A DNA stretch of 64,000 nucleotides from Xestospongia muta (taxonomy: Eukaryota > Porifera > Demospongiae > Haplosclerida > Petrosiidae): the NCBI GenBank assembly GCA_963693285.1, contig OY848918.1:3787876-3851875 (forward strand), written 5' to 3'. The position numbers and the translations under genes are program-made. How positions within the stretch are numbered: position 1 is the stretch's first letter; each line of letters begins with the position of its first letter. Of this stretch, positions 2,551-63,981 are shown piece after piece. The notes under the pieces are model-generated. The model was given only the letters and a program-made list of their open reading frames with translations, ran no database searches and was not told the DNA's origin.

Positions 2551-2696
2551 TTATATCACACCATATGCAGTACATGTGTTCATCTCAAGTTCAGTAGTAG
2601 GTAGTGTATTAGTGATCATATCAACACTCTTATATTGAGGTATAACTTGATGAGGGACAGTGTCTGTTAGTGGATTAATAGGAGATGGTACAGTAC
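2551..2696 (-). other. Gene 1 distal alternative last exon (YKSV/AYGVI tail)
   Basis: After AG the exon reads in phase from the transmembrane exon into TVPSPINPLTDTVPHQVIPQ, a tyrosine motif (YKSV here, YENV in paralogues), TELEMNTCTAYGVI and stop. The whole 48-codon exon is recognisable behind B, C, E, I, J, N and the right-edge gene, which argues for selection on the peptide. Confidence 0.7.
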
Positions 2697-2757
2697 CTAC
2701 AATGTAATAACATATTATACTCAAGTGAGATCATTACTCAATACTATGTATATAAAC

Positions 2758-2814
<57 letters not shown>

Positions 2815-5800
2815 CATATACACATACTGTTATTGGTCAATATTATATCATACCATATGCTACACATGTGTTCATCTCTAGTTTAGTAGTATGATGGTAA
2901 TTAGTGCTATTCTCATATTGAGGTATATCAGTCATCACTTGATGTTGTACAGTATCTAGTAGTGACTTATATAAGAGAGTATGCATATATAATGTAGTTA
3001 ATTGTACCTTGTCTCAGTGACTTAGTTCTTCTTATCCTATATATCATTATATGTACTAGTATAGTACACACCAGTATTAGAATTGTCACACCCACTAGAC
3101 TACCAGTAATACTACCTACAATATGTAGTGATATATTTAGTTAACTAGACGAGAAGTTATCATACTAGTATTACCTGTTATTAGATCTCTTTGAACACTC
3201 CTCACTGTAGTAGTAATAATATGAACTCAATTGTTATAATATTAATAATAACTTACTATTATCACAGTCTGTACATAGTGTAGTAGGTAATGAAGATGAT
3301 AATGTAATATCATCTCTATCAGGTGGGGACTCAACTAGAGTACTATAATTACTGGAGCCCCATTTGTTCTTTGCTTGTACTTTGAAGAAATATGTCAATG
3401 AACTATTAACTCCTGTCAAATTAAAGTAGGGTATGTCAGTCTCCTCTGTATTTGGTGTAGAATCATCAGAGTTAAAGTACATGACATGATATGATGTCAC
3501 TGGTGCATGCTCCAAAACAGGAGGAGCCTAGGGAAAATAAGTCATGAATGCATGAGGCAATGTTGTATATGTATATCTAAAATAGTAACTAAATCTAAAC
3601 TTGTCATTACAAAGGGTCAATTATTAAAGATTGCTACACAGCAATTTTGAATACATTGATATTTAGAGACAGTCCTTTATGTATTAGAAATATTTTATCT
3701 GCATAACAATTGTTTAAACAAAAGCATTTCCTTGATCATATCAATTAAAGATTGTGCTTAACAACACTAGCCACATAACTGGAGGCGATACTGTGATAGT
3801 GACATACAAATGAATAACTTGTTCTACATTTGCTAAACTGATGCATACCTGCCAATGAAGATGAATATCATCTGTATTTTGTGTCCTGCTTCGTTTTACA
3901 GTTATCCCTTTTGGAACATCTTGAGGTTCTAATAATGAATAAACACACTATTAACAAGCAATTTATTACTGTCATCACAATACTGTTTTATGTGTAACTA
4001 TCATTCTCAGTTACTAACAGACAGATCCAATTTATTTTATTATATAACACAGTAAACTGTATTTCTTAATTAATTATATAAGTCTCCTAACACACATGAA
4101 TTAAGAGTATTGTATGGTCTATCCCTGTTCCATATTTGGTATTGCATTTTAGTAACTAGTCAGTGTAGGAGAGGTGACTTTAGGTACTACTATTATAATA
4201 AAGTTTGATGGCTGCTAAACTGTTAAAGGGTAAAATTACTTCAAAGGAATCCATGTAAAGCTATTTCTAATATAATAGATATATAAATGTGACATCTTGA
4301 CATATTATGATGTAACTTAAAACCATATAGAAATATTATAATGAAATACACACAACTTACTAGCAAAAGTAGTAAATGTCTCAATGTTAGTATACATGCC
4401 ATAACCTTTCTCATTCATGGCTCTCATCTGAAAGTCATACATAACTCCTGGAGACAAGTCTAATTAACCAGAAATGATACAACATCACTACAATCAATCA
4501 TTACTTTCAAAATTATAGCTTAGATTAATGGCATTAACATTCGTGGAAACTTGAACTGATTTCCAAGTTTCACTAGTGTAAGTGCGCCGATAACTAAACT
4601 TTATGATAAAAAAAAGTAATAAAATATAATTATATCATTTGTAGCTTACTTCATACTGTGTAATGCTAACATCAGCAAATTTGAAAGCCCATTTAAGAGA
4701 GACACTGGTATTTGTAGATGCAGCTATATCAATCTGGAAGTCAGTGATATTAGGAGCTAGAAATAAAACAATGATTTCATGAAGTGTCTATTTCATTATT
4801 CATTGCTTAGAATACTAAGTGTACTCTGTTCAAGTTGAGGTGAACACCTAACTCAGTGTTATAACTCAGACTAGGTATAAGTGAGAAATTATTTGTACCA
4901 TTCAATAGGCATTGCAATCCTGCAAATTTATATAACAAAAATATACTTGATCATTCTCAAAAGTCAGTTACAATAATATAATAAAACGAAGAAAAGTAGA
5001 TATACAAACATAGTTAACACATGGTTCAAACTAATCTTAGGACTACCTCGCATACTGCACGTGCCAGGTGGTAAAAACTGGGGTGCTAGCTATTCAGAAA
5101 AGTTGTGAACTAGAAATTCCATATAAAGTGAATGGCCTTCTTCACATTCCACTATGACATAACATGATGTCACGCACAATGTGCATATGATTAATGAACA
5201 CTCATGCAAGTCTTCTCTAATTGCAGCAAAAAGATAAGAAACATTTGAAAATGTCTTTCATAGCAAAAGCAAGAAACATATGAGGAAAACAACAGCAAGA
5301 CTAGACTACCAAGATATTCTTTAAATGCCACAAAACTATTACACAATTAATTTAACGAATAAGAATCATTATAATATATTATCTGTGTTATTATCACACT
5401 AACCTGATTGACATATTCCTATATCTTTTTCCCTTTCATAATTGCCATTTCTCACTCGACACCGATACAATTCAGGAGAACAATCCTGTACTGTTAATTG
5501 TGCTGAAGCTTCATAGTTCAAAGTAGAAAGTAATGCATTATTTTTAGTAGTTGTAACACCAGAAACACTAATTTCATTCCCTCTAACAACTTTCCACAAC
5601 GAGATTTCACTGATATTAGGATATGCAATAGCATTGCAATAAATTGTTATTGGTCCATTTGTTAAAGTTGGATCAGTTACATTTGGAGTTGTTGAAAGTA
5701 TAATAAGAGCAGGAACTAAATGAATATATCAATATTTAAACAAAAGGAGCTTCTATTAATGTTATGAAAAGCACACAGATAATATACATGTTTCGTTCAT

Positions 5801-8800
5801 TAGTGCAAGCTTCTCATAAGGATCAACTTTGTGTTAGTATTTACATTGTAATCAAGACATATATATTTAATTGTATCCAGCAATAAATGGTTTGACATGA
5901 CTTACATCGTATCAGTACTTCATATTCAATAGTCATATTTCCAGCAATATTTGATATATTAGCTATATAATGCCCACGGTCACTAGCAGACACTCCAGTA
6001 GCATTGAATGTGTTTCCTTCGTATATCATTACTCCATTCTTAAACCATTGAAGAGTAGCTACAGAATAAAGAGACCTGTGTGGTGAGTTAAATAAATATA
6101 TTATCTAACCAGGTGGTAATCCAGGATTAACTGTGGGCTGTAGTTTGATATTATCACCTTTGTTATATGTAAATGTTCCCAACTCTTTCTGTAATGTTGG
6201 AGCCACTATATGGTATCATAATTACAGTAATAAGAATATATTGATAAACATGTCAAAGTCTACTATATACAATGTTATAATAATCAGCAATACGTTAAAA
6301 ATAATATTCAGATTTACAGTCATCTAAAATTGCTCATTGACTCCCTTGTTCTAAGAACTGGTTCAATTTCAGTAAACAGGAACACAATGGCTCTGAAAAC
6401 AATAAAACTAAGCAGCTTGTGGTTATATTCAAACACAAGCAATACATCCCTCACTATTATCAAACAGGTACATGTAGGAGAAGAAAATTAAACTAACAAC
6501 AAGAGGATATGATTGTAAAAAATCATCTCAAGATACTTTTGTGGTTGTTAGTGTTGTTGATACACAGCAATGATTCCACAGTTACTGAAGGCTTGAAAGG
6601 TACCAGGATCTACAGTGCTATTTTCACATTGCTAAATGCTTTGATTAATCACAACCAGGCTACAGTATTTACAGTAAAAGTAAATTAAAGTTATTGGATA
6701 AGATCAGAAATTAATGTGCACTGTTTAATTTGATTCATTGGCTTCAAAAGTCTCAAATAAAAAATGAGAAATAGATATAAAATTATAATAACATAATACT
6801 TGGTCCAAAACAATGTAAGACATTTGCAATAATGGATTGATGATTTGATAAATGTAGAAAAAAGTTAGGGGTTAAAAACACAGAGGAATATCAATGATCT
6901 AATTCATCTTTGTAATACAACATTCTGCAACTAAATGATTTAGAATAATTAGTTAATTTATGGTAATAGAACAATAACTATGTGATGACACTTTAACAAT
7001 TAGTAAGGAAAGAATTATGCTACATTTATTAACCTAACAAGGAGAACTACTTTGTCTTGTACAGAACATGCTATACTTTAAATTAACAAACATGCCTTTC
7101 ACTCTTCCTTTAAATAACCTAACCCCTAAAATGACATGATAAGTGTTATATGACAATGCCCACTCTTTCACTTAATACTTTTGATATTATGTATTTATAC
7201 TTGTTGCATGGCCTTATAGCCCCTTACTATAAGACAAACACGATATAAAACAATAATATTACTACCTAGAATGAAGTATATTTCCAAATGTATGTTATAT
7301 AGTAATATTATCAAAACATATTTATTTTGTTAAGAACATTACATCAACCTAATTAACTAATGAATATTCATCACTTTATAGTGCCCTATTCCATGATAAT
7401 ATGTAATTTAATATTCCACAAGTTCTGTGCAAACTCCTTTAGTTCACAAGGGACAGAACAAATGCAGTAGCGAGTGGTATAGTGGGTAGCAAGAGACAAT
7501 AAGGCTGACTAGATGCAATGACATAGTTCAGTATACAATACTTGTAGTAGTAAATAAGCAGATATTCCACATAGAATAATGTCCATGCCAGGACAGACCA
7601 CATCAGCATGTCCAACCAGTCTACCCACCACATATACATAAACTATGCAACGTATATATCATTTCAGTAGAATATAACAAGTCATCAAAGGACCAGAGAC
7701 ATATGTAGTGAATCAATGAGCTTACTACATGAATGAAGAATGTATAATTTAAACTTACCAGCTTCAATAATATCAAAATAGACAAAACATGAACGAGGAA
7801 ATGCGATAAGGTAGTCAAACAGATATGTTCCATTGTAACTAGACTGAAAATTATGAATTGTGAACATTCCAGAGTCAACATCCAATGTGCACATAGGATT
7901 GGTTGTGCATTGAAGAGCTTGATTAGTATTAGCTCTTAGAACTAGTAAATTATTGGGATTCAAATTTACATGTGTGAGTGTTACAGTAACATCAGCACCA
8001 AGGGGAACATAGGTGACATTAGGAGGGAGTATGGGAAACTGATCACGTTGACACTCTGAAAGAAAAGGACAAAGAGTTAAACAGGAAAGGGTTTAGCAAT
8101 TTCACATTGATTTAACACCATCCTTGGTACAAAATTGTATATGTGTGGTGGCCTAGTAAGTTGCGTTTTGGGCCTATCTTAAGACCTAAACCCTAAACCC
8201 TAAACCCTAAACTGCGGTGGCCCAGTAGGTTGCGTTTAGGGTTTAGGATTTAGGGTTTAGAATTTAGATCTTAAGATAGGCCCAAAACGCGACCTACCGG
8301 GCCACCACACTAAACCCTAAACCCTAAACCCTAAATGCGACCTACCGGGCCACCGCATATGTGTAAACTTGTCAAATGCACAGTGTTATTTACAGAATTA
8401 AAAACTGTGTTGAAACAAGAAGTGTACATTGATGCTAAGAATTATACAAATTCTATCCTCTCATCACAAATATTAATATTACATCTTTGAAGTGGAGATC
8501 AAACACAAGAAAACTATTCCTATGGCTCCATTACTATAAGGGCATTATTACAAATTAAGTTCCAAATACCATAATTAATATATCCTCACCCAAAATTACA
8601 ACAACAACTGAAAGAATTGTTCTACAATAGTTTTGATATTATGACCAGTTAGAACACAAATTAGGGGAGGGTTATGTTATGCCTGTGGGCTCACCTTACC
8701 ACCATTTTAACATAATATCACAAACACTATTATACTTAACTGTGTTCTTTTTATTAGAGACTAACAATTATGCCATAATCAAGGCCAAACATTGTTTTGT

Positions 8801-9945
8801 GACAATTACTGATCACTGTATCAAAAGAGGTAGTTAACAGTTTAATATTTAATGGCTTTAAAATACTAAAGTATCTTATACAGGAGAACGAATTTTTCAA
8901 TAAATGTAGAAAAAATCAAAATCAAGACTGTAACCCCTTAAAATTCTAAGATTACTTCATTGAGAGTGTCCCCCCAAGAAGAATTTCATTAGTTTGAGGG
9001 AAGATATAAGCAATTTGATCATGATCTGATTCATGCCTTTTATATGTGCCACTGTTTGAGCCAAAGTGCTTTCACTGAGAAAATATGACCTCTCGCTGGG
9101 TACATTTTTTTATCATTGACAAGCTCTCAAACGCCAAGACCAGTACAATTTATAACTATATCATATGAAGCAAGCTCTGATAAATTGATCTTTCGTTGCT
9201 CACTATCTTCACCTAACTGAGTGAATTTGTCCAGAACCATGGCAAGTAAGTGGGACATGATATAATGAAGGTTGTGAATGCTAAGAGGGTTCTCCCTTCA
9301 CATTCACAGAGTTTGTGCTCAGATTCTTCAGCAATTCAATACCCAATCACAAAAACATACCACAGCAGTTTTATACTAAGAGTTATTGGATGGTTAAAAG
9401 CCAGATAACAACCATCTACAGCAGACAATCCTATTTTGCTGGATTCGGCAGAATTGTATAGTTTGTGAATCCTATCAAACGTTCCTTTAGTCCATCTACT
9501 CTCTCTTTCAGGATTGCCTGGACACTTGCTACCTTGAGATGGTGGCATAACCATCCTCCAGATCTGTCACTGGCAACAGTGTTAGGGGAGAACGTAATTT
9601 TTTTGTATTTGGAAAGACTATAACTGGATTTTTTTAAATTGCAAGATATGCTATAAAATGATTTTATTACATTATGAATCTTGCAGTACGCTGTGATATT
9701 GTTGCTGATTTCTGGTAATTTGCATAAAATAAAAAAAATTTTAAATTATTTTTTAAAATATCTAATACAGGAGAACCAATTTTTAAATAAATTTAGAAAA
9801 ATTCAAAATCAAGACTATAACCCCTTAAAATACTAACACTACTTCCTTGAGAGTGTAACAAAACCCTATTAAGCTTACCAGGTTCATCCGATGGTGCGAG
9901 GTCTCCGCGAGATAGAACAGCTAGTAGCAAAATAAGATAAAACAT
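2551..9945 (-). CDS. Gene 1: Ig/FN3 receptor-like protein with alternative cytoplasmic last exons
   Basis: Type I membrane protein, about 619 aa (distal tail) or 608 aa (proximal tail). Exons in transcript order: 9945-9879 signal peptide (MFYLILLLAVLSRG); 8055-7759 Ig-like; 6205-6110 and 6058-5906 Ig (W in ATLQWFKNG, DRGHY); 5715-5404 Ig (C in YCNAIAY, W in SLWKVV, C in LYRCRV); 4756-4650, 4598-4505 and 4459-4361 FN3; 3928-3849 and 3527-3257 second FN3; 3204-3175 30-nt microexon; 3115-3008 transmembrane helix ending in RIRRTK; then 2955-2843 or 2696-2551 as last exon. All phases match and both totals divide by three. The 3' four exons are near copies of gene B, while the ectodomain is unrelated to B, so it is a fusion of a different ectodomain to the family tail. 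A start at 10005 is also possible, but Met 9945 directly precedes the hydrophobic core. Ligand unknown. Confidence 0.75.
2757..2815. repeat. (CA)n microsatellite between the two last exons
   Basis: Almost pure CA dinucleotides. The same position in genes B, N and J holds shorter CA tracts (about 20225-20240, 57857-57866, 62383-62396), so the microsatellite was duplicated with the exon pair. Confidence 0.9.
2843..2955 (-). other. Gene 1 proximal alternative last exon
   Basis: A separate last exon, 52 nt downstream of the transmembrane exon donor (GACAAG|GTAC). Acceptor CTACTAG gives in-phase DTVQHQVMTDIPQYENSTN, then LEMNTCVAYGMI and stop. It is a diverged duplicate of the distal last exon, so splicing to one excludes the other. 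Confidence 0.65.
8146..8356. mobile_element. Fold-back (MITE-like) element with TTTAGGG/CCCTAAA repeats
   Basis: About 211 bp of nested inverted modules. Each module is GGTGGCCCGGTAGGTCGC-like followed by tandem TTTAGGG or CCCTAAA heptamers; the left arm TTTTGGGCCTATCTTAAGA recurs inverted near 8268-8286. The ends are imperfect inverted copies (TGGTGGCC... and ...GGGCCACCGC). ATATGTG occurs on both sides (8139-8145, 8357-8363), consistent with a target-site duplication. No coding capacity. It lies in intron 1 of gene 1 and is far more GC-rich than its surroundings. Confidence 0.75.
8940..9570 (-). pseudogene. D-amino-acid / D-aspartate oxidase pseudogene
   Basis: In the order expected for the FAD-dependent DAO/DDO family, the minus strand shows: a fragment with TFDRIHKLYNS and SAVDGCYL (like the W..TFD...GY.L part); then SELASYDIVINCTGLG, the family NCTG motif; then ELVNDKKMYPARGHIFSVKA (the RGQ stretch); then YIFPQTNEILLGGTLNE. 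Stops and frame changes separate the pieces and the N-terminal FAD-binding loop and C-terminus are missing, so it is broken. It sits inside intron 1 of gene 1 in the same orientation. A near-identical segment of about 95 bp lies inside it (8879-8975) and beyond it (9770-9866). Confidence 0.65.
9770..9866. repeat. Direct repeat partner of 8879-8975
   Basis: Both copies read ACAGGAGAAC, AATTTTT, AAATCAAGACT, CCCCTTAAAAT and end around TTGAGAGTGT. Spacing is about 890 bp, bracketing most of the oxidase pseudogene. It may mark a tandem duplication or a recombination-mediated insertion in the intron. Confidence 0.7.
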
Positions 9946-10564
9946 AGTTAGCAGTTTCAGGTGGTTATCGAGATGATGGTAAAGACAATCTGTAGGTAGA
10001 GTCACTCAAACAGCTTAGAACAAAAAAGCGAAACCTGACTGAGTGTGACTCTAGCTCTAGGGATGGTTAATTAATAATTATAAAGACATACTATAATAAT
10101 AATTATTCATAAGTTATTAAAATTAATTAAAATTTTATATTTTTGTACTTCATAATTAAAGATCAAAAACTTGATTTTAAACAATTATACAGAAAGATGT
10201 ATGAACTCCATTGATCGGTTTCTTTTATCTCTCAAGTTTGATAAGATGCTTGATTTGTGCAATGTGCTCTGGACTTATGTCAGTATCTTCTTTAGCAAGA
10301 GCCTCAATAATCTAAACCATTATAGCATCAATGTTAGGACAATGGCTAAGATAAAAATATTTATCTGTTGGTTGAGAGGTGAATAAGTCCAAAAAAGAAA
10401 ACAGAACAAAGTAAAGATTTGCTTGCAGATCATCATGCTCAAAATCATATTACACAACTTTTAATTAATTATGATCATAACTATATGAAAATAAATCTTT
10501 TTTGATATTTCACTTTTGGAGGGTCTTAGAAAATTGCACCTTGTCTAGAGGAAATGGTTCCAAC

Positions 10565-11257
10565 CCATAATAATAGTGATATTAGTAGATGATATTGCCC
10601 ACTCATCTGATAATGTATCCTCCTCTTCAATATCATATACATACATATTATATGTACCAGTAGGTATATCATATGTACATCCAATTACTGTACTACTACA
10701 TACTGGAGAACACATCAATGATATGTTAGTACTGTAGGTAGAGGAGGTTAATGAAATAAGACAACCTTTAACAATAGTTCCTCTTATAAAATGACAGCTG
10801 TAACATATTCTACCAATATTACTTAGGTCATTATATATAACCAGATATGGATACCAGAGAGAAGGGAGGAGACCAGGAACAGTTTATATACTGACTTTGT
10901 AAATGACATATCAAGTTGCTGACAGCAGCTAGTTCACCTAATGAGTGGAGAGATATAATGACATATATCAGAGAGTGTGTTAACTTGTATTTTCAGAGTA
11001 GATTCAATAAAGTTGTAATAACTCATGCTACCATTCACAAATCCTATAGCATTACATCTCACTATTGTATCGTTATATAGAGAGTATCCTGGTATGATAA
11101 GATTAGACTGTTGTGATTCATTTTCAATTGTAACAATGCCTAGTTTAATAATGCTATTATCAGTAGAACTTGTTTCATTAACAATAATAAGTAACAATCA
11201 CATATTATATATATCAATATATATATTATATATAATATTATATATATATATATTAAT

Positions 11258-11305
<48 letters not shown>

Positions 11306-11567
11306 CACACACATATATATATCAATTGTAAAATGTTGTTTGTTATAGTTTCATTGATATACCCATATTGGTATTATCCACTGAACATTGGTAATGTGCT
11401 AGTTGATAGACTCCAATATTAGGAGATGGAGTAAATATGAACTGAATAGCTATATAATAAACTAAATAAAATAGTACATTAGTTATTAATATAATCATAC
11501 CTGTACATTTTAATATAATAGATACCAACAATATCAGTAGTAGCCATGTTGTCTTCACTAGATCCAT
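10565..11567 (-). pseudogene. Gene A: collapsed class 2 receptor
   Basis: Signal-peptide exon 11567-11501 (MDLVKTTWLLLILLVS) is intact with its donor. The Ig exon starts at 11449 but is split by an (AT)n expansion of more than 100 bp near 11190-11330; its 3' donor CAAG|GTAAC has become CAAGTTAAC. The FN3 exon begins at about 10937 and, after the residues SLVSISGY, runs straight into the C-terminal half of the class 2 domain (10565-10838) out of frame. The join lies in shared TATA sequence at about 10833-10842. There is no transmembrane exon or tail. Three independent lesions make it non-functional. Confidence 0.8.
11190..11315. repeat. (AT)n microsatellite inside the Ig exon of gene A
   Basis: Long TA/AT runs with short interruptions followed by CACACA. 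The paralogous Ig exons have no such tract, so it expanded or was inserted after the copy formed. Confidence 0.85.
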
Positions 11568-11599
11568 ATTGAGTTTGTCATTACATCACTATTATATCA

Positions 11600-13527
11600 C
11601 TATAAATACACTGATAAATACACTTTATGATGAATCAGTACACTTAAATTAGCATTTTGTCATTTCAACCATTGTCTTTGTTACCATAATCTCATCAATA
11701 TAATGTAAGCCCAATATTGAGTTACCTCAAAGCCACAACTAGTCTAACTCAATATGTATATAAAGCCAACTAGAAGCCAAAAAATACTCTTTGTAGTTTA
11801 TGTCCAATAACAGAAACAGAAACACAATAACAGAAAATGGTGAAGAGCTGGATACTATTCAACTTAACTAAATGGATTAGTTTCAGTCAAACTAGTATCT
11901 ACTTATAGCTTCAATTGAAGCCATGATCAATTACTATAGCACTGATTTAAACACTCTACAATTAGAGTTGAACAATATAACATAATTAACATTTAGACAA
12001 TTTATATCAATATTGTTGTTATGTTTAAGATATAGTCATCAAATAGTACATTTCCTATATTTGTGGATTTATTTCTATACAATTATTAAATGGTTTGCAC
12101 TGGTTAATAATTATGCTTAAAAAGTAGATAGAACACTCTGTATAGAAGAAATGATAGAACTACACTCACACAATTTATTATCACATCACTAGTATATTTG
12201 TAATGTATTAGCAATAGTTATAGTGTTGATATATTAGAACTAAAACAAAACTATTCTTTTAGGATGGAATAAAACATTATAGTATACTAACTAAAACTAT
12301 AACTGAACTTGACTACTTTAATAATAATATGAAAACTAAAACTAGAACAGAAGGCTTTGTTACCCAAACCAAAACTAATTATATTTTTAAATTTAATTTT
12401 ATTTTGATAACTTTAGTTGTTGACCTTATTAATTGTTCATTGTTTTTTACCCACAAAACATAACAACATATCAAGATCTCCTTACAAGGAACATTTAATT
12501 TGGCCTAAATATTGTAGACAATTTGAATGTTTCTCTTTACAAGTGACTACTTGAGGGACAGTACGTGTTAACAGTAAATAATTAATAATCAAAACAGAAT
12601 ATGTTGTCAACACTTTTCAATGTATTTTAGACATGTAAAGAAGATAAGTGATCATGAATTAGTTAAACAACCAACCAGTTCAAAAGACTTATATACATTA
12701 TATATCTAACTCAGAAGAACAAGGAGATGATAATTTCAAAATGTTTAACACTTAATTATGAGGGACATTATACATTAGTAAGAGAAGGGAAATGTTTCTC
12801 TTCCACTGGGACATCATATTATTATACTAATTACATAACAAATTGTATATATATATATATCCAATATGGTGATAACATTAATATTAATAAACTATAATTG
12901 TTGTTCTTTTGATAACATCAAAGTATAATATGTTATTACATTTGTCATGTAATATAACAGTAGTGATTGTAGTACTCACTACATTATATTAAAACTCACT
13001 AAACTGATGATCCTATATACAATAGTTTATTATCAACACAATTGCTAAAGTTATATATACTTTATTACATTAATATACAGTAATATTATATAACAGCAGT
13101 ATTGAGTCTATATTATGTAGAACTAAAAGAGTATAATTAGAAATAAAATGACAATAATGAACTATTTTGATTTTATAAACCACAATATACCACATTAAAA
13201 ACTGTTAACATTCTCAAGTTAAGAATATCCTCAAAATTGGATAAAATTGATTGTTAATTTAACCAATACATTGTTATATAGATTATATCTATGTAACAAA
13301 TTATTTGATATAATAAAATAAACATCATGTACAGTTTTAATTACTAATGTAATAATGTACTATGGAATTGACTATTCATGTAGCTATCTAATTGTTAGAA
13401 CTATAATGTTAAGATGTTGTTACTATGAAATTCATATATAAATCAACTACAGTGTTATAGTCACATACAGAGTACTAGGACAAACAACCAGTATAATGGT
13501 TGTGGTAGTAGAGTAGGAGTGTCTTGT
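11600..13527. other. Repeat-rich intergenic DNA
   Basis: No exon with family similarity or coding bias. It contains the first copy of a dispersed repeat (11949-12502) and a short (TA)n at 12844-12862. Confidence 0.6.
11949..12502 (+). repeat. Dispersed repeat, copy 1
   Basis: From AACACTCTACAATTAGAGTTG to AAGGAACATTTAATTTG it matches 15788-16246 almost base for base in direct orientation, with a small internal insertion here. No open frame spans it. Type unknown. Confidence 0.8.
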
Positions 13528-15768
13528 GATGTGTACTTACTATTTGTGCCACATTGAGGCATAAAATTTGCAGACACTTAAGACATAACATTAAAAAAGT
13601 TTATATATGGATGCTTTGGGATGTTATGAGAATGTCAATCAATATTGCTCATTAGATCACGACTCTCAGAATAATATTATATGGACATCTATACACACAA
13701 TGTGTTTGTAAAGATTATGATTATTACTATCAGAAATTTCCTATAGTAGTTAACTATCAGTATTATTGTCAGGTTCTATGTTGACTATTATTAACATTAA
13801 TGATATATACCTTATATGGTACATCATTAACTACATTATGATTTAAAAGATTTGCCTAAATGTTTTATGACAATATACTCAGTTTGTAATTACAGTTCAA
13901 ACATTGTCCAAATGTATACAAATTAATTGCATTAAAGTAATGTATATAGCCTTTGGAATACATAGTTTGTGTGTGTAGCTGTCATTAAGTTATTCATATA
14001 TAATATTTACTATCCTTATAATCACTGATATGTGTGGATAAATGTATTATTTATTATATCGGATCTACCTTTGTAGTTTGGGTAGTGTATTTGTCAAGAA
14101 ACAATAATAGCTAAGCTGTTGATACTAACATCATAAGTTGTTAGTTTTTAGTACATTAGCAATGAAACTTTTAGTTTGTTTTGATGTGATTAAAATAATC
14201 TATTTGTCATTATATTTAATAAATACTCCAGTAATATCTAGCATTTACTTAAAATGACTTAACACACATAATAATCGATGGAAGACCAATAAATTGGTCA
14301 TGTGATTCTTTATAATAAGTATTGAATGTCATATGAGATGAGATAGTTATTTTACTTGAAGTTGTTCTTAGAAATAACTAATAAAGACTATGAAGTTATT
14401 TTAAAAGACCTCACAAATTAAAAAGGATTAATTAGAAAAACACTTATTGCTGACTGACTAATTAAGTTGGTCACTTCCTTTAGTAAATTGATTCCACATG
14501 TGTGAGCATTTTTGGAGTGAACTCTAACTCTCAGTGCATAAAAATGGATTAACGTAATAAAAATTGTCACATGTAAGTATCAACTGTTGAGTTTCTTACA
14601 ATATTACACACTCTCTTTACCTGATAGTAAATATACATACTCTTTACTTGATGTTAAGTACACATACTCTTTACCTGATGGTAAATATACTCCCTCTTTA
14701 CTTGATGGTAAATATACATACTCTTTACCTGATGTTCAAGCACACAACACTCTTTACCTGATGGTAAATATACATACTCTTTACCTGATGTTAAGTACGC
14801 ACACTCTTTACCTGATGTTAAGCACACACACTCTTTATCTGATGGTAAATACACTCACTTTGTACCTGATGGTAAATATACTCACTCTTAACTGATGGTA
14901 AATATACATACTTTTTACCTGATGTTAAGTACACACGTTCTTTATCTGATGGTAAATACACACACTCTTTACCTAATGTTAAGTACACACACTCTTTACC
15001 TGATGGTAAGTACACACACTCTTTATCTGATGGTAAATACACTCACTCTGTACCTGATGGTAAATATACTCACTCTTAACTGATGGTAAATACACTCACT
15101 CTGTACCTGATGGTAAATATACTCACTCTTAACTGATGGTAAATACACTCACTCTGTACCTGATGGTAAATATACTCACTCTGTACCTGATGGTAAATAT
15201 ACTCACTCTTTACCTGATGGTAAATGTACTCACTCTTAACTGATGGTAAATATACTCCCTCTTTACCTGATGGTAAGTACACACTGTCTTTTAGACACAA
15301 TAACATAGTCTCATTATAAGAGCTTTTGATTTCCTTTTCAGACTGTTATATTTTACACTAAACAGTTGAAAAACATTGACTCAACTCTGTGAGTGAAAAC
15401 AATGACTACATTTACATGAGTCATAACAAATTTAATTTTATTTGTGTAATGCTAGATATATGTGGACTAAATGTAATATCATTATGTTCACTTGTTCACT
15501 TGATTTAAGGGTGATTGGATGCACCAAACAGATGTATTGCTCACCACAACATCCTCCAGATCAAACACTTATAATAATGGCACTATTCTTTATGTAATAT
15601 CAATTTGTATTATGCTTAACAATCTCAAGAAGAATAACAAGAAGATGAACATTCTCATAATGTCCCAAAACGAAACACTATCTCCCAATATATAAACTTT
15701 TTTATGTTATGTCTTAAGTGTCAGCAAATTTTATGCCTCAATGTGGCACAGATAGTAAGTACACATCA
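13528..15768. mobile_element. Inverted-repeat-bounded segment (putative non-autonomous DNA element)
   Basis: GATGTGTACTTACTATTTGT and the following ~110 bp at 13528-13650 recur inverted at about 15640-15768 (ending ACAAGTACACATC-like, with TGTGCCACATTGAGGC inverted). The 2.2-kb interior has no transposase frame and holds the 27-bp minisatellite array. A clear target-site duplication was not found, so this could also be two independent inverted copies of one small element. Confidence 0.55.
14602..15290. repeat. 27-bp minisatellite, about 25 copies
   Basis: The unit resembles CTCTTTACCTGATGGTAAATATACACA. Because 27 is a multiple of three, several frames stay open (LYLMVNTHT-type nonapeptides on plus, YLPSGKECV on minus), but these are repeat artefacts with no flanking exons. 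Each unit contains TTTACC-TGAT-GGTAAA, a perfect 6-bp inverted repeat. Confidence 0.9.
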
Positions 15769-20012: not shown

Positions 20013-20367
20013 TTAATATTTTATCACACCATATGCAGCACATGTGTTCATCTCTAGTTCAGTAGTAGGTAGTGTATTAGTGATCATATCAACATTCTCA
20101 TATTGAGGTATAACTTGATGAGGGATAGTATCTGTTAGTGGATTAACAGGAGATGGTACAGTACCTACAATGTAATAACATGTTATACTCAAGTGAGATC
20201 ATTACTCATTACTATGTATAGAAACACACACACACACACTGTTATTGGTCAATATTATATCATACCATATGCTGCACATGTGTTCATCTCTAGTTCAGTA
20301 GTATGATGGTAATTAGTAATATTCTCATATTGAGGTATACCAGTCATCACTTGATGTTGTACAGTAT
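20013..20367 (-). other. Gene B tandem alternative last exons
   Basis: Proximal exon 20367-20255 (DTVQHQVMTGIPQYENITN ... CAAYGMI) and distal exon 20164-20013 (GTVPSPVNPLTDTVPHQVIP, QYENVDMITNTLP, CAAYGVIKY). Both accept the transmembrane exon in the same phase. The arrangement, including a CA tract between them, copies gene 1. Confidence 0.65.
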
Positions 20368-28640: not shown

Positions 28641-28647
28641 TATTATT

Positions 28648-32970: not shown

Positions 32971-33009
32971 TAAATACTTGCATTTAAAAAATTTTGTCTC
33001 CTTTTACAC

Positions 33010-43262: not shown

Positions 43263-44192
43263 AGCTTATAGTAAATACAATTTTGACAGTATTGAATTTA
43301 TTATATAATGTGTGTTATGTCCTTGCAATAAAAGTATACTAATACATAGTAATGTGATCTGTTTTTCTCAGATGTAGCTAAATCAGATGAGAGAAAGAAT
43401 ATTATTTATGTCCTTGTAATACAAAGTAGACTAATGTTATTGGTTAATATCAAGTCAAGCAGATGTGTATATAGAGCATGCGATATGCATAGTTTAATTT
43501 AAATACTTAGATAGCTTATATTGTTATATTATACTTGTTAGATATAATTATTCAATTTGTTAAATGGTCCCATTTCCCATTACTTTATAATGGTGTACAT
43601 ATATTAAGTTATACTCTAATACACAAAGCTACTATGCTGATGTGAACACCTTCAATATCACAGAAGAACAACCAATAAATACAGATAAATAATGCATGAT
43701 TTATTAAGTAAATAAGAAGTAAATCAAGAGTTAATTAATAAATAATGACTTATTTAATATATACGAATTAAATATTATTAATATATCACAATAAGTTTCC
43801 AATTTTGATACAAATGACGCCCCATAATAGTGTAATATCTATTCATAGAAAGTTGGATGTAATGTAGCAGCTATCCATTATAAGACAGTTTGTCTAAATC
43901 ATACTTCTTTATATGAATTTCACTGAACTAGCAGAATTACATACACAAAGAGGTGAGGTTATACACATTGATATCATATTGACAGTTAATATGTCACTAT
44001 GAGTAAGTAAAATGAAATGGCATTGAGCTACAATTTGTTCACATACCTCCACAGATTGACATTACTGTTGATTCAATTACTATTTCAATAAGGTATCCAT
44101 TATAATATGAAATAATGGCGTTGTTATATATGCATTACTGTGTTATTTTGGTCTGAAAATAAGGTGTTGACATATACACTCAGCTTTAAAAT

Positions 44193-44708: not shown

Positions 44709-44711
<3 letters not shown>

Positions 44712-44944: not shown

Positions 44945-45501
44945 CTTAACATTGTAAATATAGCTGAGAATAAAATATGGACACAAAAATGAGTTTATCA
45001 TTACCAAGTGGAGCTCTTATTGATGTAACAGAATCAACTGTACTAAATAAGTACATTATAAATGACTTACAAATATTTTCTCATTCATTAGGTACATATC
45101 ATATTACTGAAGCTACCCTATATAATGACCTAAGTAATATTGGTAGATTATGTTATAGCTATCATTTTATAAGAGGAGATATTGTTAAAGGTTGTTTTAT
45201 TTCACTAACTTCCTCTACCTACAGTAGTAACATATCATTGATGTGTTCTCCAGTATGTAGTAGTACAGTAATTGGATGTACATATGATATACCTACTGGT
45301 ATATATAATATGTATGTATATGATATTGAAGAGAAGGGTAGATTATCAGATGACTGGGCAATATCATCTACCAATATCATCATTACTGGATTGGAACCAA
45401 TTTGTCTGTCTATTAAAATGATTATTTTATTATTATGTTCTGTTTCCATTATTATAGCACTAGTTACTACAACAATTACTATAACAGTGTATGACTGCTA
45501 A
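44945..45501 (+). pseudogene. Gene L: class 2 domain relic, inverted
   Basis: The plus strand carries the second two-thirds of the class 2 domain: LSLPSGALIDVTESTVLNKY, LYNDLSNIGRLCYSYHF, KGCFISLTSS, LMCSPVCSSTVIGCTYDI, then hydrophobic residues and stop. A one-base loss after AENKIW breaks the frame; the 174-codon open frame from Met 44977 exists only because of that change. The first CxxC cysteine is changed (CYSY for CYSC). No signal, Ig, FN3 or membrane exon adjoins. Confidence 0.75.
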
Positions 45502-51232: not shown

Positions 51233-52560
51233 CTATTTAAATAGTTGGTTAGCAAGATGAGGTTCGTTCACAGCTGGTAATCTCAATATCATCAACAATG
51301 TCTCCCGGGTATATGGACATCTCTTAGTATCTACCAGAGTTGGAACACACCAGTGATACCTTGATGGTTCTCTTCAATATCATCTAGTTCAGATGGAGTT
51401 AGTGCTAGGGCAGTAACTATCTCTCGTAGTTTTGTAGTTACACATGGAGCAACATAAGTAACTAGATCTTTATGAGTTAACTCTAATATAATCAATATAA
51501 TATAATATCTACTATATAGTAAAGTTTACTAACCTATTGTCTTCTTAATAGTTAATATATCACTTGTTTTATTAGACAAAGTAGAGTACTGACTGTCAGG
51601 TGATGATATATGACTTGTCATGTTACCATTAGTAGGTAGTGTAGAATACATAGGTGGAATAGGTGTTGAAGTATGAGAATGAGGATGTTGAGTACGATCA
51701 TAAAGTTGGGTACTAGCATGTACATTATAATTAAGTCTGGTATATTCCTCATCAGATGATCCATTTACTAAATATGAAGACTGATATTGTTGTATTAAAC
51801 TATATTGTTCCATTATTGGTGTCTCATATTACTACTGTACTATATGGTACTATAGAATGGAGATCAGGAGGAGTAATAAGTCCATTTGGTAATTGCACAT
51901 CAATATAGTTGGCAGACTGAGTAGCTGTTAATGTCTAAAAATATAATAGAAATAAAAACACAACATAATTAATTGTCACACTAAATAATTACTTTACTAA
52001 TTGATATTCAACAATAAAGATCATTTGAATTGCATTTCATAAAAAGACTATTGTCATAATTGGCAATACACAAATAAACTGTTGTCACATTCACATAATG
52101 AGACCCTTCACAGTTTATATATAGCTCCCACATTATAATAGAGCAGTATTATTATCATTAATTGTCTTTTTATTAGCCTCATTTGAATTATTCTCAGTAC
52201 TCCCATTGTTTTCTTCTGGCATCCATTTATCTATACATGTGACAATGTCATTATTAATAAAGTGTATTCAACTTACTTGTCATGCTTGATACATGACTAT
52301 AATCATAACTATCATAATCGCTATAATAATTAATAATAAAAGCATGATTGCTGAGATTACTATAGCAACTATAGAAGAAATTCACAATAATAACGCTACA
52401 TTAAATTATATATAAACTTACTAATAATTGTTACTGATGAATCACCTTTAACTGCTATAGTGTATATAAATCAATATAACAATTTAATATAATAACTTAC
52501 TATTATCAAGTATAGTTGATGGAGATACACTTGATATGAATGTATGGGAAGGAATAATAA
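51233..52560 (-). pseudogene. Gene M: decayed 3' half of a DEATH-tail receptor
   Basis: From 52560 downward: stalk end, linker exon, transmembrane exon (AIMLLLLIIIAIMIVMIIV) running into TGA before its donor, acidic exon (WMPEENNGSTENNSNE), YVNV-type block, tyrosine-tail exon (about 51935-51535) with a one-base insertion at GTAGTAATATGA, and a DEATH exon 51482-51233 with a one-base deletion (CTCTGGTAGATACTAAG). It lacks all ectodomain exons. It lies directly downstream of G and keeps F-type and G-type tail exons side by side, showing that both once belonged to one 3' region. Confidence 0.8.
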
Positions 52561-52773: not shown

Positions 52774-55705
52774 TCACTCAATAAGTTGGTCAGCAAGATC
52801 AGGTTCATTTACAGCTGGTGATCTCAGTATCATTAACAATGTATCCCAGGTATATGGACGTCTCTTAGTCTCATACCAGATTTGGAACACACCAGTGATA
52901 CCTTGATGGTTCTCTTCAATGTCATCTAGTTCAGGTGGAGTTAGTGCTAGGGCAGTACCTATCTCTCGTAGTTTTGTAGTTACATGTGGAGCAACATAAG
53001 TAACTAGATCTTTATGAGTTAACTCTAAAATATTAAATATAATATAATATCTACTATATAGTAAAGTTTACAGACCTGTTGTCTTCTTAATAGTTAATTT
53101 ATCATTTGTTTTATTAGGCAAAGTAGAGTACTGACTGTCAGGTGATGATATATAACTTGTCATGTTACTATTAGTAGGTAGTGTAGAATACATAGGTGGA
53201 ATAGGTGTTGAAGTATGAGAATGAGGATGTTGAGTATAGTTGTCAACTGGGATACTAGCATGTATATTATGACTAAGTCTGGCATGTTCTTCATCAGATG
53301 GTCCATTTACTAAATATGAAGACTGATATTGTTGTACTAAACTATATTGTTCCATTATTGGTGTCTCATGTACTACTGTACGATATGGTACTGTAGAATG
53401 GATGTTACGAGGAGCAATAGGACCATTAGATGATGGAATCACATCAGTGTAGTTGTTCTGGCTAGATTGAGTAGTTGTTAATATCTAAATGTGTATAAGA
53501 ATAAAAACACACAGTATTTATTAACATATTTAATTGTCACAGTTGTCATTGATCATTTAATTATATTACATAAATAGAAGTTTATTATCAATAGTAAATA
53601 ATTGTTGGATAATCTGTCGCATTCACATAATGAGACACATTACTGTACTATTTAATAGAGCTTCAACATTATAATAGAGCAGTACCATTAACTGTCATTA
53701 ATATATACCTTATTTAAATTATTCTCAGTACTCCCATTTGCTCGTTTTGGTATCGATTTACCTATACATGTGACATTAAAATTTGCTTATTATTTATAGA
53801 TATATTTAAAATACCTCTCTTGGTTCTGCATAGCACTATAACTATAACTATCACAATGACTATAATAATTAATAATACAACTATAAATGCTGAGATTACT
53901 GCAGCAACTATAAAAGACAATTCACAATAATAACATTATATTATATTATGTATAAACTTACCAATTGTTGTTACAGATAAATCACCTTTCATTGCTGTAG
54001 TATATATAAATTATTGTAATGACTGTAATAATATAATAACTTACTATTATCTGTATATAGTGTAGGTGATGGAGATGATGATGATATAATATTAGTTGAT
54101 GAAAAAAGTACATTTAATGTGGAGACAATAGTAATGGTAGTAGTAGGAAATAGTCCAGTCACTGATTGATTAGTCAGTTTTACAGCATACTCAGTAGTAT
54201 ATGGTACATTGTTATAATCAATATCATAAAATGTCACATTATAGTTACTGGTATATATTTCTGTCACACATTTACTAGCAGTACTGGTATCTACTGATGT
54301 TCTCATTATGGTAATATTACCATTGTAGTAATCTGTTATAAGTGAGTTATATTCAATATAACATCCTTGTGATTGACTACCCTCAAGAAAATAACAAGTA
54401 AAACAAACTTGTCCAGACTCCTTTGTTAAACTGCCATTTTGAACATCAAATGTAGCTAATAAAAATATTAATACAATTAATTAAAGATAGATAATTAGGA
54501 TTAAACTGACTTACATAATAGCTCAACTGGTGAACTAAGAGATCTACAGTTGTATCTTAAAGTCAAAACAATACTCCATTTTTGTCTGCCAGTAATCTCA
54601 ATACTCATATTTCCAATTAACTTATTTCCAACAAAATCATCTACACTTCCATTAAAAATAAATGTAGCTCCAATACTGTTAGTTAAAGTAATAAATGCTA
54701 ATGATGGCTGTAGTGAATACACAGTCTAGATAAAATATATGTAAAATTAAATGATATTTATATAAGAGAAGTTATCATACCTCCACAGTATAATTGACCA
54801 AATATGTGCCATTTGACGATCTTTTAGGAGTCACATAATAGCTAGAAATTGTATCTATTAGTGTCAAGTAGTTGACAAATTAAAATGTCTACATCATTTA
54901 CCTTCTGGTACTACAACTGATGTAGTACTTATCTCTCCTTCTCCAGCTGAGTTATTACCAGCTACACTAATTGTATAGTCACCAAATTGACTGGGACAGT
55001 ATTGCCATGTTGTAGAAGATGTAGTGTTCTGTGTAACTAGTTCTCCTCCATAAGTAACATTGATGATATAACCAAGTATGGATACCAGAGAGAAGGGAGG
55101 AGACCAGGAACAGTTTATATACTGACTTTGTACATGACATATCAAGTTGTTGACAGCAGCTAGTTCACCTAATGAGAGGAGATATAGTGACATATATCAG
55201 AGAGTGTGTTACCTTGTATTCTCAGAGTAGATTTACTAGACTTGATATAATCACTATTGTTCACAGATCCTGCAGCAATACACTTCACTACTGTATTGTT
55301 ATATTGAGGATATCCAGCTATTGTAAGAATAGAGTGCTGTAGTACTCCACTTGTAAAAATACCAGGTTGGATAGTGTTGTCATTATGACCATAACTTGTG
55401 CCATTTATATTCCAATTAACAGTCACACCATTATGATCCACTGAACATTGGTAATGTGCTAGTTGATAGACTCCAATGTTAGGAGATGGAGTAAATATGA
55501 ACTCAACAGCTATATGATTAGAAATTTTTCATGATATATATAATGCTATCAAATTAATACATGATGTGTACAATTATGTATGTTGGCTCAGGTTGATGGA
55601 CAAAACATAATATTATATTAATATTGTAGCAACTATCATACCCAAGACATTGTTGACAAACAACATAATGATGTAGTATACAAACAGTAGTAGTAAGACC
55701 ACCAT
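52774..55705 (-). CDS. Gene G: class 1 Ig-FN3 receptor with tyrosine-rich tail and DEATH domain
   Basis: About 720 aa. Exons: 55705-55642 signal peptide (MVVLLLLFVYYIIMLFVNNV); 55509-55213 Ig; 55168-54902 FN3; 54854-54781; 54725-54515; 54455-54045 cysteine-rich module and stalk; 53994-53962; 53907-53815 transmembrane helix (FIVVLLIIIVIVIVIVIVL) then RTKR; 53761-53709; 53484-53076 tail of 136 residues (MEQYSLVQQYQSSYLVNG, PMYSTLP, SQYSTLP); 53024-52774 DEATH-like domain (LREIGTALALTPPELDDIEE, VFQIWYETKRRPYTWDTLL, SPAVNEPDLADQL) and stop. All phases agree. SQYSTL fits the ITIM consensus. DEATH domains make homotypic contacts with adaptors in apoptotic or innate signalling; which adaptor is used here is unknown. 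A remnant of the F-type YVNV exon at about 53600-53690 has an early stop, so G uses the long tail instead. Confidence 0.82.
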
Positions 55706-57648: not shown

Positions 57649-58541
57649 TTAATATTTTATCACACCATATGCAGCACATATATTCATCTCTAGTTCAGTA
57701 GTAGGTAGTGTATTAGTGATCATATCAATGTTCTCATATTGAGGTATAACTTGATGAGGAAAAGTATCTGTTATTGGATTAACAGAAGATGGTACAGTAC
57801 CTACAATGTAATAACATATACTCAAGTAAGATCATTACTCAATACTATGTATATAAACACACACATACACTGTTATTGGTCAATATTATATCATACCATA
57901 TGCTGCACATGTGTTCATCTCTAGTTCAGTAGCATGATGGTAATTAGTGATATTCTCATATTGAAGTATACCAGTCATCACTTGATGTTGTACAGTATCT
58001 AGTAGTGACTTGTATAAGAGAGTGTGTATATAAAATGTAGTTAACTGTACCTTGTCTCAGTGACTTAGTTCTTCTTATCCTATATATCATTATAAGTACT
58101 AGTACAGTACATACTAGTATTAGAACTGACACACCCACTAGACTACCAGTAATACTACCTACAATATTAATATAATAATATAATTAGGCAACACACACCA
58201 TTTCTGTATTGTTATATTGAGGATATCCAGGTATTGTAAGACTGGAGTTAGATGATCCTGCTCCATTTGTAATGATACCAAGTTGAATAGTGTCATTGTT
58301 AGTAGAAACTGTTCCATTAACATACCAAGTAACACTCACACCAGTATGATCCACTGAACATTGGTAATGTGCTAGTTGAAAGACTCCAATATTTGGGGAT
58401 GGAGTAAATATGAACTGAACAGCTATATAATAAAACTAAATAAAATAGTATATTAGTTATTAATATAATCATACCTGTACATTTTATTATAATAGATACT
58501 AACAATATCAGTAGTAGCCTTGTTGTCTTCACTAGATTCAT
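57649..58541 (-). pseudogene. Gene N: receptor lacking most of its ectodomain
   Basis: Signal-peptide exon 58541-58475 (MNLVKTTRLLLILLVSIIIK) and most of the Ig exon (58422 to about 58195; HYQCSVDHTGVSVTW) are present. The Ig exon then stops after PGYPQYNNT and a TAA follows. No FN3 or membrane-proximal exon remains. The transmembrane exon 58158-58051 and both alternative last exons (57998-57886, 57800-57649; QYENI, QYENI/V, AYGM, AYGVI) are intact. No donor near the Ig break gives the phase needed by the transmembrane exon, so it is probably dead. Confidence 0.75.
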
Positions 58542-62075: not shown

Positions 62076-62176
62076 TCACCCTCGTGCTTGATTTTATAGT
62101 TAAAATTTAATTCATTAATTTATCATGATCATAACATAAAATTATATAATGTCAGCTGTATAATGTACTTTTAATA

Positions 62177-63668
62177 TTATATCACACCATATGCAGCACA
62201 TGTGTTCATCTCTAGTTCAGTAGTAGGTAGTGTATTAGTGATCATATCAATATTCTCATATTGAGGTATAACTTGATGAGAGACAGTATCTGTTAATGGA
62301 TTAACAGGAGATATTACAGTACCTACAATGTAATAACGTATTATACTCAAGTGATATCATTACTCAATACTATGTATATAAACACACACACACACAATAT
62401 TAATATAATATTATAATTATATGTGATATATCAAATTAATTAGACTACCTATTATTAGATCTTCATGATTATTTTTCACAGTAGTAGTAGTAGTAGTAGT
62501 ATTGATAGAATGAACTATATAATATAATAACAATTTACTAGTATCACATTTGTTTGTACAAAGTATAAAAAAGGTTTATAGTAGTAACAATTATACTTAC
62601 TAATACTATCAATGATACTAGTAGATATCACAGATGTTTTAGAAGGTCCTTTAGATATTCTGCCAGTGATAGTAATATCTGTTAATATAACAGCTGGATT
62701 AGAACATGTCTTGTTGCCATGAGGTAATGCTCCATCACATACATATAATGTCCAATTATTACCACTGAAACATTTGGTAAAATTTAGTTGATTGTTATGA
62801 GAGAGATCTTCATTATCAAAAAGATAAAGTCTATGATCACACTGTAGATGTAGATGTACTTCATTTGTTGTACTTCCATTAACAAAGATAAACTGAAGAC
62901 ACAATATATCATTTGATGTATTAGTTATAATTAACTGTTGTAGATCATGACTACCTGTTATCAAAGATAGTAATGACATATGTAACACATACAATATACT
63001 TACTGGTAACTACTGGAGTAGTTTGAAATATCTGTCTAATCTTATATTGTAAGTATACAAATGTATTGAACTTCTCTCTAGGAGGAAGATCAATTACTAA
63101 TATTATAGTCTTATATCCATTAGAGTCAGTGATAATAGTAACATTAATACTGTTATAACAATCAGAAGAGTTCTTTAAGTTACAACTCGTCACTGTTGTA
63201 TTCATAATAGGTTGAGTACAGAGTTGAGTGGACTGTAAGAGAGTATGTCATGTGACATATTGAAATATCATGTGATCACGTACTGGTATTTTAAAGTAAA
63301 ACGTCCAGTCATTGTTTAATCGATAAGTCACATGGTCACTATAGGAGGTATTGAGGATCTGATCTATGAAAAGAAACACTATTATCAATTAATAAATCAA
63401 TGAAAAATAGATAATACTTTATTGTATTGATTTTGAATGTGGACATATAGATCTACATGTATAGATAACAAAATAACATAAATAATTTATAGAATTATAA
63501 AAATAAACATCATCATTATGTACCTGTTTTAAACATTGTAGTGTTACTGTTCAATATTCCAGTCCTTGCTCCATTCATTGTAGTAATATTAAGTCTATAT
63601 TCTCCATTAGTTTGGTCAATAGGACAATAAGTGTAGTTAGTAGTATAGATTACTTCTGATGACATTAA
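62177..63668 (-). pseudogene. Gene J: class 3 receptor, 5'-truncated and without a membrane exon
   Basis: From 63668: second half of the FN3 exon, ending 63524 (YCPIDQTNGEYRLNITTMNG); 63363-63284; 63232-63004 (STQLCTQPI, NSSDCYNSINVTIITDSN); 62954-62601, an intact 118-residue block (HDLQQLIITNTSNDILCLQF, FTKCFSGNNWTLYVCDG, ILTDITITGR); a microexon-like sequence near 62475-62445 whose acceptor CAG is CTG; and a normal last exon 62322-62177 (QYENIDMITNTLP, CAAYGVI). The transmembrane exon is reduced to its first codons and no upstream Ig or signal exon is present. The ectodomain exons that remain are in phase. Confidence 0.7.
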
Positions 63669-63829
63669 CGATTGTAGATATAACTGGATATCTTATGTAA
63701 ACAAATTAGTAAATGATCAACAATAACTTTGTCAAAGGTCATTTAGTCTATCAAATTCCTTTGAGAAACATCATCAACAATATGTGATTATAGACCTCTG
63801 ATTAACAATAGACTAGAGCAGCTGTTTCT

Positions 63830-63981
63830 TTAGCATTTTATCACACCATATGCAGCACATGTCTTCATCTCTAGTTCAGTAGTAGGTAGTGTATTAGTGA
63901 TCATATTAACGTTCTCATATTGAGGTATAACTTGATGAGGGACAGTATCTGTTAGTGGATTAACAGGAGATGGTACAGTAC
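63830..63981 (-). CDS. Last exon of another receptor gene extending past the right edge
   Basis: Acceptor CTATTGTAG then GTVPSPVNPLTDTVPHQVIP, QYENVNMITNTLP, LEMKTCAAYGVIKC and stop, in the family frame. Upstream exons lie beyond the window, so whether the gene is intact cannot be judged. Confidence 0.65.

Follow-up and report, generated by a model that had tools for sequence, protein, structure and literature searches.

Sponges tell self from nonself with high specificity, and a polymorphic genetic system has been inferred for them in the portions of a graft transcriptome paper drawn on here (PMC5450542), so which genes might do this work? The question is raised by a 64,000-nucleotide stretch of the sponge Xestospongia muta (C2:3787876-3851875, where C2 is contig OY848918.1 in a 158-Mb genome of 28 contigs), hereafter the window. 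This stretch is part of a complex of ~2 Mb with well over a hundred related receptor-gene copies, in which the immunoglobulin (Ig) exon is independent of the class of membrane-proximal (MP) domain and the fibronectin type III (FN3) exon tracks that class. We consider it likely that the complex encodes germline-encoded, single-pass receptors that discriminate self from non-self through diversified Ig heads, with tyrosine-based or Death-like outputs; their expression, ligand binding and signalling we infer from sequence.

Exon models were built by hand from the genomic sequence, and splice sites and frames were checked. Five receptor genes on the minus strand, C20, E26, F35, F46 and G53 (which we take to be genes B, C, E, F and G of the initial annotation), have GT-AG joins and open frames from the Ig exon to the stop codon, as that annotation had claimed in calling them phase-intact. 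Their modules follow the order signal, Ig, FN3, MP domain, stalk, transmembrane segment (TM) and tail. The models of these genes, and of a sixth, gene 1, are as follows.

20013-22258, minus strand: gene C20; signal exon SP1 22192-22258, Ig 21843-22139, FN3 21532-21798, MP2 plus stalk 20669-21100, stalk 20587-20616, TM 20420-20527
20255-20349 or 20013-20164, minus strand: alternative ends of C20, tail-a (weak acceptor) or tail-b (PQYENV...AAYGVIKY), respectively
25577-27678, minus strand: gene E26; SP1 27612-27678, Ig 27263-27559, FN3 26955-27218, MP1 26058-26756, stalk 25950-26000, TM 25711-25806, shortened tail-b 25577-25662 (YGVI only)
34570-36604, minus strand: gene F35; SP1 36538-36604, Ig 36189-36485, FN3 35874-36140, MP1 35049-35675, stalk 34933-34995, TM 34770-34865, tail-b 34570-34721 (YENV, YGVI)
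46023-48153, minus strand: gene F46; candidate signal exon SP2 48090-48153, Ig 47683-47979, FN3 47368-47634, MP2 46529-46936, stalk 46446-46478, TMc 46302-46391, c1 46203-46255, c2 46023-46148 (YVNV; weak acceptor)
52774-55705, minus strand: gene G53; candidate SP2 55642-55705, Ig 55213-55509, FN3 54902-55168, MP2 54045-54455, stalk 53962-53994, TMc 53815-53907, c1 53709-53761, multi-tyrosine exon 53076-53484, Death-like exon 52774-53024
2551-8055, minus strand: gene 1; Ig0 7759-8055, Ig1a 6110-6205, Ig1b 5906-6058, Ig2 5404-5715, FN3a 3849-3928, FN3b plus stalk 3257-3527, stalk 3175-3204, TM 3008-3115; open frame, GT-AG joins, matching phases
2843-2937 and 2551-2696, minus strand: candidate last exons of gene 1, tail-a and tail-b (YKSV at the YENV site), respectively

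The combinations differ from gene to gene. C20 joins MP2 to YEN[I/V] tails, E26 MP1 to a shortened tail without YENV, F35 MP1 to YENV, F46 MP2 to YVNV, and G53 MP2 to a multi-tyrosine exon plus a Death-like domain. All three cytoplasmic ends first described (YENV, YVNV, multi-tyrosine plus DEATH) are seen; E26 has no YENV, and the Death-like match is weak. The signal-Ig-FN3 head said to be common to the five genes holds for Ig and FN3, which all of them have, but not for the signal exon. C20, E26 and F35 are complete from an intact SP1 (MDLVKTTWLLLILLVSIILKCT) to the stop codon, whereas in F46 and G53, which are in frame from the Ig exon to the stop, SP1 is cut after ~12 codons, ~0.7 kb upstream of the Ig exon. 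A second signal-peptide-like exon, SP2, with a phase-1 GTATGA donor, is found in both of these genes just before the Ig exon; a single signal exon for all five genes is therefore ruled out. SP2-like exons are also found in three further genes of the examined set (264 kb of the complex, 200 kb of it outside the window, together with 18 single loci), one of them of the MP1 class. All modelled introns are GT-AG and of phase 1, except for phase 0 in the c-type tail (F46, G53) and within the FN3 of gene 1; the least secure joins are the acceptors of the F46 YVNV exon and of tail-a. By eye, the TM segments contain no charged residue except histidine in some.

Gene 1, whose model starts at Ig0 with no signal exon identified, bears stalk, TM and tail exons as in the cluster on another Ig/FN3 ectodomain. 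Its positions 2812-3307 are 94.8% identical to 20224-20719 of C20, in agreement with the early description of the same TM and tail exons on a different ectodomain, and the common block begins within an exon. The gene 1 domains exceed Pfam cut-offs (Ig_3 34.1 bits, fn3 33.3 bits). In both C20 and gene 1, tail-a and tail-b are two candidate last exons, in place of a single tail.

What are the shared modules? The Ig exon has cysteines C21 and C76 conserved in at least 90% of 39 sequences and an invariant W32, a Cys-Trp-Cys pattern that would correspond to the B-strand Cys, C-strand Trp and F-strand Cys of an Ig domain. Single Ig exons match Pfam weakly (Ig_3 in 14 of 39 members, best E 0.0078; 'ig' in four, best E 0.0032). 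The FN3 exons of C20 and G53 score 11.6 and 17.4 bits at a Pfam cut-off of 25, and E26 has no listed match. The best PDB matches of the FN3 profile (22 copies) are FN3 domains of the netrin receptor DCC (E 1.7e-5), which argues for an FN3 identity at the profile level. Ig-FN3 ectodomains are common among adhesion molecules, and this layout, like the DCC match, would suit adhesion or developmental receptors (cell sorting, tissue identity) expanded without any role in self/non-self discrimination. We consider this unlikely, since the copy number is very large, and the reassortment of heads between tail types combined with high turnover would be unusual for developmental receptors.

Both MP types of the initial annotation are present, but as homologous rather than unrelated domains. 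Profile alignment with hhalign pairs MP2 with the C-terminal half of MP1 (98%, E 2.5e-13), which rules out unrelated classes, and cross-matches have 31-36% identity; by this profile comparison, the two regions are the same cysteine-rich domain. Searching the PDB with the MP2 profile gave no match up to E 10, Pfam gave no model above cut-off for MP2 or the C-terminal half of MP1 in C20, E26 and G53, and no relationship of MP2 to the Ig exon or the FN3 exon was detectable. The two cytoplasmic exons that distinguish G53 are:

53076-53484, minus strand: multi-tyrosine cytoplasmic exon with nine tyrosines, five of the nine invariant in five copies
52774-53024, minus strand: Death-like domain exon (Pfam Death 14.6 bits, cut-off 22.6)

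Four of five copies of the Death-like exon match Pfam Death (best E 0.0029). The best AlphaFold2 model has six helices and a mean predicted local distance difference test score (pLDDT) of 62 (46-50 in the other four models), and of 18 Foldseek matches the top ten are structures of death domains (E 0.59-4.9). These three weak lines agree with one another and suggest the label Death-like, against a profile search of the PDB that returned no death domain and only unrelated weak matches. The tail motifs are conserved: in 33 near-complete tail-b copies, relics included, QYxN[VI] is kept in 26 and AYG[VMI]I in 29. YxN[V/I] is a Grb2-type SH2 site. The immunoreceptor tyrosine-based inhibitory motif of KIR/LILR-type receptors is [SIVL]xYxx[LIV]; by eye, VPYxTV and SQYSTL of the multi-tyrosine exon fit it, and AAYGVI of the short tail has no strict fit. 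Rfam has no match in the window at gathering scores.

How far does the family reach? Counted as exon matches, not proven genes, a genome search with the Ig exon gave 205 candidates, of which 150 were scored. Since all 150 have E <= 1e-31, they are not chance matches, and 145 of them lack a stop. As many as 147 lie on C2:3.577-5.468 Mb (1.9 Mb), with two on C5 and one on C14. Among the scored MP2 matches, 103 of 150 rank above the first MP1 cross-match; MP1 has 152 matches, fragments included; the 39 matches of MP3, the domain of the type-3 ectodomains listed below, are all on C2; and 34 of 150 scored Death-like matches have E <= 1e-30, all within C2:3.72-5.49 Mb. The array of tandem, modular Ig receptors with tyrosine tails first noticed in the window is supported and enlarged to ~2 Mb. 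Could most of these copies be degenerate or mis-assembled, with few working genes and the rest relics and uncollapsed haplotypes? The window does contain many relics, and its positions 1-13111 are 99.63% identical to C2:3741753-3754868, 46 kb upstream, and Ig matches paired ~46.1 kb apart point to either a tandem duplication of 46 kb or a haplotype left uncollapsed. However, nearly all scored Ig exons are stop-free, as stated above, and 38 stop-free Ig exons have a median identity of 82% to their nearest relative in the examined set, a divergence too great to come from a few genes in uncollapsed haplotypes, making such an explanation very improbable.

Outside the complex, many relatives of the Death-like exon, 27-39% identical, are found on C1, C3, C4, C6 and other contigs, perhaps in NLR-type genes. 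Other dense runs of FN3 matches (C7:0.22-0.71 Mb, C7:1.75-1.83 Mb, C5:3.32-3.56 Mb, C9:5.63-5.68 Mb, C12:1.0-1.2 and 3.53-3.58 Mb) possibly represent more receptor clusters.

Do heads stay with the domains beneath them? In the examined set 41 Ig-bearing copies were grouped, damaged ones included. Class tests left out genes without MP1/MP2 and Ig or FN3 copies with stops or less than 90% coverage, with 34 Ig and 32 FN3 exons remaining. Ig identity is 0.810 within and 0.818 between MP classes (permutation p 0.97, n=34), and the nearest Ig relative belongs to the other class in 17 of 34 cases, versus 0 of 32 for FN3. In Mantel tests FN3 correlates with MP2 (r 0.64, p 0.002, n=20) and marginally with MP1 (r 0.53, p 0.055, n=9), whereas Ig does not do so with MP2 (r 0.05, n=22), MP1 (r 0.04, n=8) or FN3 (r 0.13, p 0.10). 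The Ig exon of F35 (MP1), for example, is 95% identical to that of F46 (MP2) but 84% identical to that of E26 (MP1). In a sliding-window comparison of 29 aligned genes, for which FN3 exons less than 78% identical to the query or less than 90% complete were also left out, no class signal is found in the SP-side, Ig and early FN3 stretches; it emerges weakly in the second half of the FN3 exon and becomes strong only over the final ~50 bases. In the windows preceding the Ig exon, identity is slightly lower within than between classes (difference down to -0.04).

The 12 MP1-grouped copies, damaged ones included, have only the short-tail set, with no TMc, c2, multi-tyrosine or Death-like match, and MP2 copies have short tails (9), c-type or Death-like tails (9) or no assigned tail type (6). 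The initial annotation placed all module borders at phase-1 or phase-0 introns that allow free swapping. The modelled phases are indeed 1 or 0, but exchange boundaries also lie inside exons, in gene 1 and in FN3; these boundaries and the single tail set of MP1 rule out free exon swapping at introns as a general rule.

Where do the heads vary? Per-residue entropy of 38 Ig exons alternates: W32 is invariant amid variable neighbours, and in residues 73-81 even positions are near-invariant and odd ones variable. The autocorrelation is 0.53 at lag 2 and -0.02 at lag 1 (p 0.0006), and this two-residue period fits one exposed face of the sheet that would contain the C and F strands. The variability profile of 91 database Ig sequences off the complex's two contigs is closely similar (correlation 0.91; lag 2 0.52). 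The same clustering, turnover and patterned Ig variation would be expected of innate immune receptors that recognise microbes and have expanded as LILR/KIR have in mammals or CHIR in birds, their diversity following pathogens or symbionts rather than kin. Consistent with such receptors, the portions consulted of a Halichondria panicea transcriptome study report almost 200 putative cytokine receptors, mostly with tyrosine kinase, Ig and FN3 domains, and pattern receptors of which 62% have individual-specific expression (PMC8242945). Pfam detects no microbial ligand-binding family in the modules, but this counts for little because the modules are poorly covered in Pfam. We regard receptors for microbes as a possible explanation, although a tentative one.

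Is there more than one version of the complex? With the Ig profile, 414 proteins were recovered, and the analysis covered the best 120. Nearly all of these come from ENA, and one is encoded in the window itself; because the database is clustered at 90%, this set is biased toward diverged members. The complex's own contigs (1,679,331 and 663,590 bp) account for 22 of the best 120, nine of which match the examined DNA at >= 95%. Exact matches of these contigs span 3.62-5.43 Mb, so that other long contigs would have little space left in the complex. Another 42 of the best 120 come from four other long contigs, and none of the 42 matches at 95% the examined DNA, which covers 41 of the 150 scored Ig exons. 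In searches of the whole genome, P0001, from the complex's own contig, matches at 100%. Proteins of the other contigs match at 90% across introns (P0002, which resembles a gene with its own exact entry, P0014), 80% (P0015) and 63% (P0004); P0026 has no match at E <= 1e-55, a setting at which an empty answer is uninformative. Since these four contigs carry diverged Ig genes, the database probably holds a second, diverged version of the complex, be it the alternate haplotype or that of a different individual or closely related species; which of the three it is decides how much polymorphism this version shows. A whole-protein search with G53 gave none at E <= 0.001 among 7995 candidates scored, a result that says little because the Ig profile found its 414 proteins in the same database. 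The ENA protein P0005 has stalk-like units tandemly repeated after its MP2 part, hinting at variation in stalk length.

Besides the intact genes, the window contains partial and damaged copies:

10545-11567, minus strand: damaged copy with signal exon, Ig exon broken by a TA repeat, and FN3 fused mid-exon to MP1
28646-28885, minus strand: relic, a lone signal exon joined to the end of a tail exon
30394-31729, minus strand: type-3 ectodomain made up of Ig-like, FN3 and MP3 parts, for which signal, TM and tail gave no match; FN3 part fn3 E 0.0015, below cut-off, and no Pfam match of the Ig-like part at E <= 0.01
31858-32972, minus strand: headless MP1-TM-tail relic with stops and frame breaks
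33678-33966, plus strand: inverted fragment of a multi-tyrosine tail exon (match at 33719+, 48%)
44951-45421, plus strand: inverted MP1 fragment
51236-52526, minus strand: damaged second copy of TMc, c2, multi-tyrosine and Death-like exons
57652-58541, minus strand: deletion form, signal exon and an Ig truncated at its end, directly followed by TM and both tails
62170-63665, minus strand: type-3 copy (partial FN3, MP3a, MP3b, tail) with no TM match
63830-63997, minus strand: tail-b exon belonging to the following gene, at the edge of the window

Other elements are a retroelement integrase frame at 171-1490 on the plus strand (Pfam rve and H2C2 zinc binding), a 27-bp minisatellite (25.5 copies, 14605-15291) and a 222-bp tandem repeat (5.6 copies, 97% matches, 42042-43275). 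An exon with a scavenger receptor cysteine-rich (SRCR) domain at 23737-24240 on the minus strand (Pfam SRCR 34.7 bits at 23983-24240), with a possible downstream continuation, is a scavenger-receptor gene or relic within the cluster.

How would such receptors work? We propose that the membrane-distal Ig domain, through one hypervariable face, would bind partner molecules on other cells or microbes, with FN3 and the cysteine-rich MP domain raising it above the membrane. Once clustered, the receptors could become phosphorylated at YxN[V/I] and YxxΦ sites or assemble through Death domains. Short tails, with their YxN[V/I] and YGVI tyrosines, would be of the SH2-adaptor or phosphatase type. A minority of receptors would carry the multi-tyrosine tail ending in the Death-like domain, and similar heads would therefore be wired to different outputs, possibly cell death. 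The repertoire would be made by tandem duplication, together with recombination or conversion moving Ig heads between MP classes.

Several observations weigh against this proposal. The exon models used no RNA, and the window is rich in relics, many copies being broken. C20, E26 and G53 match no Pfam Ig family at E <= 1, the best PDB match of the Ig profile, DSCAM, reaches only E 0.14, and the predicted MP1 structure (pLDDT 32) is not usable. Tested strand by strand, the alternation is significant only at residues 73-81 (p 0.007), versus p 0.18 at 28-36 and p 0.15 at 49-55. Summed ratios of nonsynonymous to synonymous divergence (dN/dS), from which module copies with stops or less than 90% coverage and pairs with dS outside 0.03-0.6 were left out, are below 1 in every module (Ig 0.69, FN3 0.60, MP1 0.63, MP2 0.55). 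Locally, Ig values rise to 1.9 (codons 27-37) and 2.4 (50-57) and are marginally above 1 at 4-5 and 95-96, but these peaks are confounded by conversion and carry no formal test.

In its most specific form, the proposal is that of a germline allorecognition complex of a sponge: 2 Mb and > 100 Ig receptors, with heads reassorting among adaptor-type and Death-type tails, haplotypes sharing few heads, and mismatched contact wired to rejection and cell death. This form is conceivable rather than probable; we weigh allorecognition and microbe recognition about equally, with a slight lean to allorecognition.

Is anything like it known? The tails of the Hydractinia Alr receptors carry tyrosine signalling motifs. 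The Alr complex (Alr1/Alr2) likewise consists of clustered single-pass Ig-superfamily receptors, many of them likely pseudogenes, in the part of the account drawn on here (PMC11999971). Here, in contrast, one Ig is followed by FN3 and an MP domain, exon-encoded tails are of several kinds including Death-like, and the 147 scored Ig matches on C2 are matches, not proven genes. The likeness to Alr drawn in the initial annotation holds as one of layout and diversified Ig domains, of systems that may work alike. Similar heads on different signalling tails in a tandem cluster are also typical of the vertebrate leukocyte receptor complex (KIR, LILR) and chicken CHIR. To our knowledge, these vertebrate receptors have no MP or Death-like domain; the sponge short tails, by contrast, have YxN[V/I] and YGVI motifs, and their TM segments appear uncharged by eye save for the occasional histidine. 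Arthropod Dscam and the short Dscams of chelicerates likewise put diversified Ig heads on shared tails, as given in the sections used (PMC5775551, PMC4835542), whereas in the window there is one gene per head, no array of alternative Ig cassettes is seen and only the last tail exon is apparently alternative. Existing sponge recognition candidates are the aggregation factor and sponge adhesion molecules, in the excerpts consulted (PMC5450542, PMC11999971). These sources present the aggregation factor as a proteoglycan complex located outside the cell, unlike the receptors of this complex. The main text of the graft transcriptome paper does not contain the words 'immunoglobulin', 'fibronectin' or 'receptor' (PMC5450542). 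Searches of the open-access literature, covered mostly at the level of titles and abstracts and with subscription journals mostly outside it, gave no description of such a complex in a sponge. The first impression of an undescribed system can thus be kept in part: clustered, diversified Ig receptor families are a known kind, and what appears to be new is how the modules are combined, how large the complex is and its probable host.

With one mapped region, counted exons, defined modules and a measurable variable face, the question of which genes are involved becomes one of linkage, expression and binding. If the proposed reading is true, head-swapping Ig receptors with mixed tails, following the logic of KIR or Alr, would be present in an animal lineage that probably was among the first to branch off, and the complex would provide a natural coupling of Ig heads to Death-like domains.

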